A stretch of 64,000 nt of DNA from Defluviicoccus sp. (GTDB lineage Bacteria > Pseudomonadota > Alphaproteobacteria > MPNO01): positions 1 through 64,000 of the forward strand of contig JAJEHI010000008.1 in the NCBI GenBank assembly GCA_022823775.1. Direction: 5' to 3'. The notes beneath the pieces were generated by a model that saw nothing but the letters and a program-made list of their open reading frames with translations, had not been told where the DNA came from and ran no database searches. The translations under genes were made by a program, and so were the position numbers. This document shows positions 17,054 to 21,177 of the stretch, piece after piece; within the stretch, counting starts at the first letter, position 1; each line of letters starts with the position of its first letter.

Positions 17054-18366
17054 AAGCTGTAGGCGACGTTGAGAACGACGTACCCGTCGCGCCGCGTCTC
17101 GTAGATCAGGTCTTTTTCGTCGACTTCGAGCATGACCGCCGCCTCCACGGTTGCCGCCCAGCTGTCCGACAGGTCCCGCTTCGCTTCGAAGCCCATGAGG
17201 TATGTCGAATAATCCAAGTCGGCGACGAAGCTCGCCACGAACTCGGTGGCCTCCACGTCGTTCAGCGCGAGGCGGGACGCGAAGAACACGTCGTTCTGGT
17301 ACCTGTTGGTCGACCGGCGCCCGCGCTCGTCGTAGCTCCATTCGCCCAGCAGGCTGATATCGGCCTCCGAATCGAACACCCCGCCGAACGTGTACTCGAC
17401 GCCGCCGACGAAGGCGGCATAAGCCTTTTCCTTGCCCAAAAGAGCGCCGGGCGGAGGACGGTCGATGGCTCCCTCGCGGCGAATGGCTTCGAGCTTGAAC
17501 AGCCAGGATTCGACGGTGAGCTGGGCGTCGAGCCCGTACTGCCTGATCTGCGCGTAGTGCGGCACGAGGGTGCGCGGCACCGGAAAGGGCAAGCCCGGGA
17601 TCGTTTCCAGTGTCGGTATGAACGACGGCTCGCGGCTGGTCCCGTCGAACACGCTCGCACCCACGTCGAGCGGCCCCACGGTGCGGCTGTAGCGCGCGGC
17701 GAGGTCGACATGCCATTCCCCGGCCGCGCTCTCATAGGAAACCCGCTCCCGGTCGAACGGGACGCCGGACCGGAGGCGGCCCTCGCGCCCGGGCAGGGTG
17801 CGTTCGCGGTGGAGCGGCATGGCGAAAAACTCCAGCACGCCCCAGTCGGCGGACCAGGTGAGGTGGGCCATGAGCTGGCCCATCCGGGTCTCCTCGTTCG
17901 GGTGGTCGGTCAGGTCGATCTGGTTGACGATGTTGACCAGATGATGGAATTCGGTGACGCCCCAGAACACCCGGTCTACGCCGAGCCGCGCCTCCCACTC
18001 GCCCTCGCCGAGCTCTCCGAACAACAGGAGATAGGCCTCGCGCAGGTCGGCGTTGCTGCGTTCGGGATCTGCGCTGTCGTGGCGGTAATGCGGGGTCAAG
18101 GTAAAGCTCCCGCCGTCCTCGTGTTCGAGGTAGAGCGTGGGTTCGGCGGTAAAGCCCAGGCTCCCGTCGCGCTGGCCGCGATGCCCCGCCTCGTTGGGGA
18201 ACCAGCGGCCTTCCACGGCCAGGCGGCCGGAAAGCTCCGTCTCGATCTTGCCGGTTTCGGCGGCGGCAAAGGCGTTCAGGAACGTATAGGCCGCAACGCA
18301 CGTTGCGACGGCGCCGAGGGTGCGATGAAAATTGCGTGTCAGCGGCATGCCAATCGATGTCCCCAT
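17050..18366 (-). CDS. Predicted outer-membrane beta-barrel protein
   Basis: 438 residues from ATG at 18366 (a second ATG at 18348 would also keep the leader). Residues to about 35 form a signal peptide (positive MPLTRNFHR, hydrophobic core, AFAAA-E cleavage-like site). The mature part alternates short polar and aromatic strands and ends in YSF. A C-terminal Phe after alternating hydrophobics is the BAM recognition signature. I do not recognise a named family; an alginate-export/porin-like barrel or DUF1302-like protein is possible. It is convergent with the molybdenum hydroxylase gene and divergent from the ATPase gene. Transport of a small solute is a guess. Confidence 0.7.
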   Translation of the reverse strand: MGTSIGMPLTRNFHRTLGAVATCVAAYTFLNAFAAAETGKIETELSGRLAVEGRWFPNEAGHRGQRDGSLGFTAEPTLYLEHEDGGSFTLTPHYRHDSADPERSNADLREAYLLLFGELGEGEWEARLGVDRVFWGVTEFHHLVNIVNQIDLTDHPNEETRMGQLMAHLTWSADWGVLEFFAMPLHRERTLPGREGRLRSGVPFDRERVSYESAAGEWHVDLAARYSRTVGPLDVGASVFDGTSREPSFIPTLETIPGLPFPVPRTLVPHYAQIRQYGLDAQLTVESWLFKLEAIRREGAIDRPPPGALLGKEKAYAAFVGGVEYTFGGVFDSEADISLLGEWSYDERGRRSTNRYQNDVFFASRLALNDVEATEFVASFVADLDYSTYLMGFEAKRDLSDSWAATVEAAVMLEVDEKDLIYETRRDGYVVLNVAYSF

Positions 18367-18601
18367 CTCTAGTGTGCGTCGCTGGGCGGCAGGATCATAG
18401 CTGCCCTCACATGGCTTGGCACGCTTGGGGCGCACCGACTTAGGATCACCCTCCACAGGCCACCTCCTTATTCTTGTTTCTGATCGATCATGGACTGTTA
18501 TGCTCGGACGGAGTATTTGAAGCGCGAGTACCGCGCGAGAACATCGTCCAAGTCTGTCCGACGCGAATATCGGCACTTCGGATCCTAGGCGGGAGACACA
18601 G

Positions 18602-19963
18602 ATGTTGAAGCGACTGAAACTGACCAATTTCAAGGCGTGGAAGGAAGCCGATCTGCGATTCGGCAAGGTGACCGGTTTCTTTGGCACCAACAGCGCAGGC
18701 AAGAGCAGCGTGCTACAACTCTTACTGCTGCTCAAACAGACTAGGAATGCGACGGACCGCGGCCTAGTGCTCGATTTCGGCGGGCCTTCCGACTTCGTGA
18801 ATCTTGGAACCTTTGGCGACGTCGTACACCGGCATCACGAGAAGAGGAAAATAAGTTGGCTCCTCGACTGGTCTCTTCCTGAGACACTGAAGATCAGCCA
18901 ACGAGCGGCATCCCCAAGCCCTCTCTCATTGGAGGGAAATTCTCTTGAGACTCGATGTGCGGTTGGTCTGTGGCGCGAACGCCTGTGGCCGCATTCGTTG
19001 GCCTACAAGTTCGATCAGGTGGAATTTCTTGTGGAATCTCAAGTTGGGTCGGAGAACAAGTTCAAGCTTGATACGACGGCTGCTGATTTCAGGTTTGTAC
19101 GTAATCAGGGTCGAGCATGGCCCCTTTCGCACCCAATCAAAACGCATTTGTTTCCAAATGAAATGATGCGCTTTTATCAGAATGCGGACTTTCTACGCAA
19201 TTTCGAGCTAGAATATGAACGTTTAATGGACTCAATATACTACTTGGGGCCGCTCCGGGAGTATCCGCAGCGAGAATACGGTTGGGCAGGCTCAAGCCCT
19301 GGAGATGTTGGACGGCGCGGAGAAAGTACCGTGGATGCAATACTCGCCGCCACTCGCGACGGACAGACGAGGAGCCTTGGCTATAAGAAGCGGAAAAAGA
19401 CATTCCAGGAGATGATAGCGTATTGGCTAAGCGAGCTGGGGCTGATTCAGGAGTTTGAAATCAAGGAAATTGCGAAAGGCACGAACCTATATCGAGCGAG
19501 AGTAAAGACCTCCCAGTCAAGTCCTTGGACCCTCTTGACCGACGTCGGGTTCGGGGTCTCCCAAGTTCTTCCGGCGCTGGTTCTCCTGTACTACGTCCCG
19601 GAGGGTTCAACCGTGCTAATGGAGCAGCCCGAGATACATCTCCATCCGGCCGTGCAGAGTGAACTGGCAGATGTCATGTTGAATGTCGCCGAGGCCCGGA
19701 ACGTGCAGATCATCGTCGAGAGCCATAGCGAACACCTGATGCGGCGCTTGCAGCGCCGAGTGGCCGAGGAGGAGGCGGCTTCCGAGGATGTCAGGTTGTA
19801 TTTCGTCTCCACCAACGGAAGCCAGGCACAGGCTTGCGATCTGCATCTCAACAGATGGGGTGAAATCGAGAACTGGCCGGATAATTTTTTTGGGGACGAA
19901 CTGGGAGAGATCACGGCGATTAGCGAAGCATCTTTGAAAAGAAAATTGGAGCAATCTCAATGA
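18602..19963 (+). CDS. AAA-family (OLD/SMC-like, DUF3696-type) ATPase of a candidate defence module
   Basis: 453 residues; GGGAG lies 6 nt before the ATG. Walker A is GTNSAGKS at 28-35, after the typical LKRLKLTNFKAWKEADLRFG strand. The C-terminal half has an ABC-like signature region (GFGVSQVLPAL), a Walker B variant VLMEQPEIHLHP with E341/Q342 in place of the usual D/E, and a switch His in IIVESHSEHLMRRLQRR. The end (RWGEIENWPDNFF) fits the DUF3696 tail. No TOPRIM, HNH, HEPN or helicase domain is seen. G+C is near half (29 of 60 in the line at 18841) against about two thirds around it, so transfer is likely. Its stop overlaps the PIN gene start (ATGA). Probably a sensor or gate for the nuclease; that role is inferred. 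Confidence 0.85.
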   Translation: MLKRLKLTNFKAWKEADLRFGKVTGFFGTNSAGKSSVLQLLLLLKQTRNATDRGLVLDFGGPSDFVNLGTFGDVVHRHHEKRKISWLLDWSLPETLKISQRAASPSPLSLEGNSLETRCAVGLWRERLWPHSLAYKFDQVEFLVESQVGSENKFKLDTTAADFRFVRNQGRAWPLSHPIKTHLFPNEMMRFYQNADFLRNFELEYERLMDSIYYLGPLREYPQREYGWAGSSPGDVGRRGESTVDAILAATRDGQTRSLGYKKRKKTFQEMIAYWLSELGLIQEFEIKEIAKGTNLYRARVKTSQSSPWTLLTDVGFGVSQVLPALVLLYYVPEGSTVLMEQPEIHLHPAVQSELADVMLNVAEARNVQIIVESHSEHLMRRLQRRVAEEEAASEDVRLYFVSTNGSQAQACDLHLNRWGEIENWPDNFFGDELGEITAISEASLKRKLEQSQ

Positions 19964-20433
19964 TGGTTTATGTCATGGATACAAATGTTGCCGTAGCTGC
20001 TAACGGTAGAGACACTCACGCCGATACTGCGTGTCAGTTGGCCTGTGTGAAAAGGATAAGGGCCTTGATCGACGAGGGGATCCTAGGCGTCGATGATAAA
20101 GGCTTGATTGTAAAAGAATACGCCGATCGTTTGAACTTTTCAGGCGCTCCCGGTGCTGGCGATGCGTTTTTCCGGTACGTCTTTGATCAGCAATATCGGG
20201 AAGACCGTATTCGTCGAGTCACCGTGCATCCGTCAAGCGACGTTGATCGGGGGTTTGAAGAACTACCCACAAACGACTTCGACCCGTCGGACCGGAAGTT
20301 CCTGGCCGTCGCGGTGGTCGCCGATGCGGTGGTGCTGAACGCCACCGACAGCGACTGGGAAGAACACGCTGACCTGATGAACGAGTTGGGTGTGGGGGTC
20401 GAACAGCTTTGTCCCCAGCATGCCAACAAGTGA
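19960..20433 (+). CDS. PIN-like domain nuclease partner of the AAA ATPase
   Basis: 157 residues, started at the ATG overlapping the ATPase stop (a second ATG follows at once). The fold pattern is PIN: first strand VYVMDTNVAVAANG with D7, then E53 in LIVKEYADRL, D111 in DPSDRKFLAVAV, and D130/D132 in NATDSDW. That gives the four acidic residues that bind Mg2+ or Mn2+ in ribonucleases such as VapC. No antitoxin gene is adjacent; the translationally coupled ATPase takes that place. From memory, PIN-like proteins with DTNV..VANG and DPSDRKF recur beside DUF3696 ATPases, but I know of no assigned function. RNA cleavage is inferred from the fold. Confidence 0.75.
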   Translation: MMVYVMDTNVAVAANGRDTHADTACQLACVKRIRALIDEGILGVDDKGLIVKEYADRLNFSGAPGAGDAFFRYVFDQQYREDRIRRVTVHPSSDVDRGFEELPTNDFDPSDRKFLAVAVVADAVVLNATDSDWEEHADLMNELGVGVEQLCPQHANK

Positions 20434-20460
20434 AGTCGATCGAGAAAAAATAACGGTGCA

Positions 20461-21123
20461 ATGCCTTTGAACCGGAAGTATCCCAGAACACCGTACTGGC
20501 CCTACTCCCCTGCCGTCGGTCGCGAGGACGGGTTGCATCCTGATCCCCGCTGGTTCGTAGGGACGCCTGTCATCGTAACCGAGAAACTCGACGGCAGCAA
20601 TATTCTCCTGCACGACGGCAAGGTCTATGGGCGCAGCGTGTCCGCCCCGTCCGAAGCGAAATGGACGGCGATGGTCAAGAAGCACCATGCTTGGAAAGTG
20701 ACCGAACGCGATGTCTATCTCTATGGCGAGGACATCTACGGCGTGCACAGCATCGCCTACGGGCCCGTGCCGGAGGACCGGACGTTCTATGCTTTCGCAC
20801 TCCGCGACAGAGCTGGCGCATTCGCCTCGTTCGCCGATGTAGAGGCCTATGCCAGTCGGTACATTATCCCTGTGGTGCCCGTGCTGTTCAGAGGAGAATT
20901 TTGTTCCGTTTCAGAGCTACGCGCTTTCATCGAGAACGCTCACGCCGAGCCATCCATCCTCGGCGGGCCTCGCGAAGGCGTCGTGGTGCGGCTGGCGTCT
21001 GGGTTTCCCGCATCCGAGTTCCCGCTCAGTGTCTGCAAGAGCGTTCGCGCCGGCCATGTGCAGAGCGACGCGCATTGGACGAAAAACTGGCAGCCCTGCA
21101 AGATCGCGCCAAGCCCTGCCTAG
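20461..21123 (+). CDS. ATP-dependent RNA ligase (Rnl2/Rnl5-like nucleotidyltransferase)
   Basis: 220 residues. All core motifs of the RNA ligase nucleotidyltransferase family can be read: motif I EKLDGSN with the adenylated Lys K42, the GRS at 57-59, motif III LYGEDIYGVHSIAY (87-100), motif IIIa FYAFALRD, motif IV EGVVVR (172-177), and motif V CKSVRAGHVQSDAHW (192-206). Such enzymes seal nicked or broken RNA via ligase-AMP and RNA-adenylate. There is no N- or C-terminal extra domain, so this is a minimal ligase. It begins 27 nt after the PIN gene on the same strand and shares the lowered G+C, which suggests one operon with the ATPase and nuclease. Confidence 0.85.
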   Translation: MPLNRKYPRTPYWPYSPAVGREDGLHPDPRWFVGTPVIVTEKLDGSNILLHDGKVYGRSVSAPSEAKWTAMVKKHHAWKVTERDVYLYGEDIYGVHSIAYGPVPEDRTFYAFALRDRAGAFASFADVEAYASRYIIPVVPVLFRGEFCSVSELRAFIENAHAEPSILGGPREGVVVRLASGFPASEFPLSVCKSVRAGHVQSDAHWTKNWQPCKIAPSPA

Positions 21124-21177
21124 CGAATGGATGTCTCTCGGAGAACCCGATACGCGGCCTCACAAAGGAAACACCCG

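Follow-up and report, generated by a model that had tools for sequence, protein, structure and literature searches.

We describe a real and conserved three-gene module, consisting of the two genes of the candidate defense system HEC-03 together with a gene for an RNA ligase that is unlisted in that system, and represented by a copy in the 64,000-nucleotide stretch of Defluviicoccus sp. DNA analyzed here (contig JAJEHI010000008.1; henceforth the window). The ligase is the new element in this association, the ATPase-PIN pair being a listed candidate already. We tentatively propose that the three products form a defense module in which RNA cleavage is gated by the ATPase and accompanied by a built-in repair ligase.

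The three genes and their products

Three ORFs on the + strand, within positions 18602-21123 of the window, code for an ATPase of the DUF3696 type, followed by a protein with a PIN fold and then by an ATP-dependent RNA ligase. Their coordinates agree with an earlier note on this DNA, which had described three co-directional genes with an ATGA coupling between the first two and a 27-nt spacer ahead of the third. The features of the locus are as follows:

18602..19963, + strand: DUF3696-type SMC/ABC-like ATPase (HEC-03B), 453 aa; from PADLOC, Pfam and motifs
19960..19963, + strand: ATGA stop/start overlap of the ATPase and PIN genes; from the sequence
19960..20433, + strand: predicted PIN-fold nuclease (HEC-03A), 157 aa; from PADLOC, AlphaFold model and acidic residues
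20434..20460, + strand: 27-nt spacer between the PIN and ligase genes; from the sequence
20461..21123, + strand: predicted ATP-dependent RNA ligase, 220 aa; from Pfam, model neighbors and motifs
18268..21169, no strand: inserted block with exactly the three genes; from collinearity with relatives in the genus

The 4-nt overlap between the ATPase and PIN genes is the commonest arrangement among relatives too. The 27-nt spacer of the window is atypical, as most relatives have a 4-nt overlap at that junction (the median PIN-ligase gap is -4 nt, with values from -20 to +30 nt in 78 of 79 loci). The module coincides with a dip in GC content, which is 0.53-0.54 in the ATPase and PIN genes and 0.61 in the ligase gene, as against 0.64-0.73 in the flanking genes.

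The first product was identified by PADLOC as HEC-03B, with a match of 674 bits (E 2e-203) covering residues 1-451 of 453, and Pfam recovered AAA_15/AAA_21 along with DUF3696 (32.6 bits; cut-off 22), in agreement with the family assigned to it earlier. It displays a Walker A motif (...AGKSS, with G33 and K34), a Walker B motif (...EQPEIHLHP, 341-349) and an ESHSEH motif (373), and the key Walker residues are kept in 95-99 of 99 homologues. The protein falls in the RecF/SMC/OLD-like group of ATPases and also matches the PADLOC models NsnB (222 bits), AriA (91 bits) and GajA (40 bits), its HEC-03B score being about three times that obtained with NsnB.

The second product matches HEC-03A (215 bits, E 1e-64) over residues 2-157 of its 157 aa. 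The pair is therefore already listed as a candidate defense system, and the statement of the earlier note that known relatives do not fit has to be given up. HEC denotes an Hma-embedded candidate, identified via guilt by embedding (PMC12988326), and the founding preprint is cited in that article as doi 10.1101/2024.01.29.577857. Pfam returned only sub-threshold PIN matches for this protein (E 0.04), and a PDB sequence search with its profile gave spurious matches only, so that the fold was assigned by structure. The AlphaFold (AF2) model has a pLDDT of 96.6, and its top PDB neighbors consist almost entirely of PIN nucleases, VapC toxins included, the best being VapC21 (Z 10.1, 123 residues, 3.5 A); the majority of its structural neighbors are ribonucleases. 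Going by this model, the product of the second gene is a PIN-fold protein, as had been supposed from the sequence, and the four acidic residues then singled out, D7, E53, D111 and D130, are kept in 103-105 of 105 homologues. Further acidic residues are found at D108 and D45.

The third product had been read as an ATP-dependent RNA ligase with K42 and motifs III, IV and V, and it is indeed recovered by the Pfam model RNA_ligase (PF09414) with 71 bits (cut-off 27). K42 of motif I is present in 93 of 93 ligases, and the remaining motifs, YGE at 88-90 (III), EGVVVR at 172-177 (IV) and K193 (V), are kept in 92-93 of 93, including E90, E172-G173 and K193. The structural model is weaker than that of the PIN protein (pLDDT 80.9), and its neighbors include the Naegleria RNA ligase (Z 15.0) and T4 Rnl2 (Z 13.7), with the alignment limited to the nucleotidyltransferase domain. 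This domain makes up the whole of the 220-aa protein, which is devoid of the extra domain of T4 Rnl2 (C-terminal) or of the Naegleria ligase. The Pfam, PHROGs and structural comparisons all place it nearest to RNA ligases, and no PADLOC model was matched by it or by six other operon ligases.

A relative of the ligase from D. radiodurans, DRB0100, which shares 31% identity with it and belongs to the HD-Pnk/ligase repair operon DRB0098-DRB0100, forms an AMP adduct at the motif I lysine, yet no ligation of RNA or DNA by it was seen (PMC1997131). Taken with the presence of a nucleotidyltransferase domain only, this raises the alternative that the ligase-like protein is an effector adenylyltransferase, which would AMPylate and block the 5'-phosphate ends of the PIN products or some other target, or would join RNA into a signal. 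We consider this unlikely, given that the Rnl-type motifs I, III, IV and V are all retained and that the nearest solved structures are nick-sealing RNA ligases.

Linkage of the ligase to the ATPase-PIN pair across genomes

In evenly drawn genome samples HEC-03A was detected in 11 of 385 genomes of the class, 15 of 398 of the phylum and 6 of 369 of a second class, and the ligase gene lies directly behind the PIN gene in 16 of the 27 HEC-03A genomes of these samples, each genome being counted once. Across 85,000 species genomes, 413 HEC-03A relatives were detected; in the best 80 of these 413, a set that leans to one clade, the ligase directly follows the PIN gene in 76 loci, and two of the four ligase-less loci stop near a contig edge. 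Conservation of the ligase beside the ATPase-PIN pair in other genomes, on which the earlier note had staked its idea of a module, is thus borne out. A search with the ligase in the 385-genome class sample matched six genomes, with five of the six matches adjoining HEC-03 and one not. Likewise, a ligase of more than 45% identity was met in nine plasmid records, each of which also has HEC-03A (five of these loci were read), and the full ATPase-PIN-ligase block occurs in three of three IMG/VR contigs classed as viral (L137-L139). An integrase-like gene lies directly upstream of the block in L138 and L139, which suggests carriage on integrating elements. Phage records gave no match to HEC-03A, and a pattern search drew no relatives of the window ligase from viral contigs; in the phage collection, relatives of this ligase are present in jumbo phages (38% identity). 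Among the hosts are Proteobacteria, a Rhodococcus plasmid (Actinomycetota) and conjugative plasmids of Aeromonas; the names in database records add Sphaerochaeta and cyanobacterial and Chloroflexota MAGs. Recurrence of the operon in several phyla, together with the narrow range of PIN-ligase gaps, goes beyond what chance would produce.

The distance matrices of the three proteins are correlated, with coefficients of 0.60 for ligase and ATPase, 0.71 for ligase and PIN and 0.75 for ATPase and PIN. At the level of sequence, then, all three proteins diverge together, and the predicted catalytic sites are near-invariant in each of them, which points to selection acting on the activity of each protein. 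No gene fusions among the ATPase, PIN and ligase were found in the loci compared. Within the main clade, a copy normally comprises all three genes. There also exist two-gene ATPase-PIN forms devoid of the ligase, including 8 of 8 sampled members of the subclade to which the window belongs, and because of these the ligase is not strictly required. Three loci (L046, L047 and L049) combine very divergent ATPase-PIN pairs with ordinary main-clade ligases, hinting at an exchange of ligases between HEC-03 lineages.

Placement in defense operons

The immediate neighbors of the module loci were read case by case, and some of them are genes of defense systems. In L074, which clusters with L089 and L099, the block is flanked by HsdS and HsdR; it comes after a type III Res gene in the L083 group and after GmrSD in L112; and in L044 it is preceded by a DUF1156 methylase and followed by an SNF2 helicase, the L044 and L051 copies both being embedded in methylase/helicase operons. 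Within defense operons of these kinds (type I, type III, GmrSD and Hma-like), all three genes, that of the ligase among them, stay together as one block.

The presence of the block in DNA restriction operons, and the fact that many known members of the RecF/SMC/OLD-like group act on DNA, bring up the alternative that the PIN protein nicks phage or host DNA under the SMC-like ATPase, with the ligase sealing the nicks in host DNA. The affinities of the ligase, which by Pfam, PHROGs and structure are to RNA ligases, and those of the PIN model, whose neighbors are mostly ribonucleases, render this quite improbable.

HNH_2-type genes recur near the block in 13 loci. In an Acinetobacter soli plasmid (L051:4639-7296) an HNH_2 endonuclease gene occupies the ligase slot behind the PIN gene, and in other loci (L064, L075, L079, L090 and L134) the HNH_2 gene comes after the ligase. 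This gene could belong to the host defense operon, as its next member, or represent an alternative third part. Separately, of 22 module genomes, the two represented by L080 and L084 have genes of the RlaP family (genome hits L188-L191), which code for polymerase-beta-like proteins of an RNA repair pathway; in both cases the contig coordinates seem to place these genes near the module.

Insertion of the window copy and the origin of its ligase

Two genomes of the same genus are collinear with the window up to position 18267 and again from 21170-21174. Between these flanks one of them has 290 bp and no module, and the other has a Phd/VapC toxin-antitoxin pair at the module site (L177:9543-10224). 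As relatives in the genus are thus collinear on both sides without the module, the block 18268-21169 is an insertion; a search for HEC-03B in four genomes of the genus found none. The module is flanked by a DUF1302-type gene and a RidA-type gene, and does not lie inside an Hma operon. The site between these two genes has the appearance of a small hotspot, being occupied by the module, by Phd/VapC or by next to nothing.

In a tree of the ATPase and PIN proteins the window belongs to a fully supported subclade, and the members sampled from it have no ligase. In an unconstrained ligase tree its ligase lies outside the clade of 28 operon ligases, near those of jumbo phages and free-standing ligases. 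Since the subclade is devoid of the ligase and the window ligase is phage-like, the simplest reading is a second recruitment, and the sequences suggest that the window copy acquired its ligase independently from a phage-type enzyme. An AU test does not reject the joining of the window ligase with the operon ligases (p 0.28), so that a common origin is to be kept alongside this suggestion, and we dropped the stronger claim of a proven independent recruitment. We likewise dropped GC content by itself as a sign of separate origin, because a ligase GC excess like that of the window is within the range of true operons, being seen in 11 of 71.

For the window alone, one could also suppose that an unrelated phage-like ligase gene came by chance to lie behind a two-gene HEC-03. 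The ligase shares its strand with the pair, is separated from it by 27 nt, lies in the same inserted block and takes the same slot as in the main clade. Moreover, the family is rare, with one match away from HEC-03 in the 385 class genomes. A chance neighbor is hence very improbable, even though the ligase groups with phage and free-standing ligases, has a GC content above that of the ATPase-PIN pair and is missing from the nearest ATPase-PIN relatives, the first and second of these points being weakened by the AU test and by the GC excess of true operons, respectively.

A proposed mechanism

The computed features of the module are its conserved operon, its PIN and ligase folds, the intact catalytic sites of all three proteins, their co-divergence and their placement in defense operons. 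From these we infer the remaining parts of the proposal, namely the trigger, the RNA substrate, the gating by the ATPase, the sealing of the PIN product and the anti-phage effect. In the proposed scheme the DUF3696 ATPase would hold or license the PIN nuclease; upon a trigger linked to phage, the PIN enzyme would hydrolyze RNA and translation would stop. By analogy, the RNA cut would most likely be a structured one, for instance in the anticodon loop of a tRNA or in a loop of rRNA, with tRNA foremost. The small ligase, made in step with the nuclease, would reseal breaks with 3'-OH and 5'-phosphate ends; if it does so, it would set a threshold against leaky activation and allow the cell to recover, and the cleavage would be reversible.

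Control of a self-harming RNase by an ATPase is known from PrrC and RloC (PMC3710099). PIN domains are described as employing two-metal catalysis (PMC12923823), and two-metal nucleases yield 5'-P/3'-OH ends (PMC12409363); by this analogy the PIN products should be sealable by an ATP-dependent RNA ligase with neither a kinase nor end healing. For VapC, one paper reports products with 5'-OH ends (PMC6459853); ends of this kind would not be directly ligatable, which counts against the model. Further points that would weigh against it are the non-obligatory nature of the ligase, its single domain and the non-ligating behavior of DRB0100.

End healing also bears on another explanation. Of six cousins of the ligase that were examined away from the module, four adjoin HD-Pnk end-healing enzymes. 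The HD-Pnk proteins (HD + AAA_33 kinase) pair with small ligases of the sister group at L056:4992-7695, L145:4001-5892, L192:4956-6974 and L193:5082-7015, in compact RNA-repair operons on plasmids of Deinococcus, Pseudomonas aeruginosa and Bosea. A tblastn search with four HD-Pnk proteins found none in 112 module loci, and, judged by the neighboring genes, no end-healing kinase or phosphatase lies beside the window ligase. The ligase might be an independent repair arm for host RNA cut by ribotoxins of phages or competitors, or by other anticodon nucleases, with the ATPase-PIN pair being separate and the operon ensuring joint expression only. The persistence of two-gene forms is compatible with this, as are the ligase cousins in HD-Pnk operons and jumbo phages. 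We nevertheless regard it as rather unlikely, since many ribotoxins leave ends that need healing and no end-healing enzyme accompanies the module in the 112 loci, and since the ligase co-diverges with the PIN protein and in the class sample is found almost only beside it.

Returning to gated cleavage with built-in repair, the cut-and-seal module of the earlier note stands insofar as the operon is conserved and fits the expected PIN and ligase chemistry; it has to be amended in that the pair was already known as HEC-03 and the ligase is not obligatory. RNA-cutting defense systems are usually treated as one-way switches to dormancy or suicide, with the repair enzyme on the side of the phage. A reading in terms of reversible immunity is plausible: if true, the joint retention of a nuclease and its matching ligase across phyla would make RNA damage by an immune system a reversible state. 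With more reserve, we consider it possible that this is an immune system made reversible by its own RNA-resealing enzyme, in which a ligase joined the pair on two or more occasions, the source for the window copy being a phage-type repair enzyme with a possible role in counter-defense elsewhere. In practical terms, a widely used defense database has no model for a conserved third component of HEC-03.

Comparison with known systems

No description of a three-gene ATPase-PIN-ligase system was found in the literature searched. The module resembles PARIS, Gabija and Septu in the general similarity of their AAA_15/AAA_21 ATPases; these systems were rejected, as there is no TOPRIM or HNH effector among the three genes. 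Menshen (NsnABC) was rejected because NsnB scores 222 bits versus 674 for HEC-03B, and the PIN protein and ligase match no Nsn model. The likeness to VapBC lies in the PIN fold (Z about 10) and in its acidic site, which is the same in both; membership was rejected, as there is no VapB/Phd-type antitoxin and the PIN gene is preceded by the ATPase and followed by the ligase.

The ligase shares motifs I, III, IV and V with Rnl2-like RNA ligases but does not possess the C-terminal domain of T4 Rnl2. The HD-Pnk/ligase operons, as typified by DRB0098-DRB0100 of D. radiodurans, have a related small adenylation-domain ligase; its partners there are HD-Pnk and a macrodomain protein, whereas those of the window ligase are a PIN nuclease and an ATPase. 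With PrrC and RloC, which are countered by T4 Pnkp-Rnl1, the module shares the logic of an RNase controlled by an ATPase and of an RNA ligase as antidote. In these systems a HEPN domain is fused to the ATPase, whereas the window has a separate PIN gene and the ligase in the same operon, with no kinase/phosphatase. HEC-03, as defined in PADLOC-DB 2.0.0, has no ligase model, and the window copy lies outside an Hma operon, unlike the context behind the name; the HEC-03B and HEC-03A matches nonetheless cover the full length of the ATPase and of the PIN protein of the window, whose genes are adjacent and co-directional and overlap by 4 nt.
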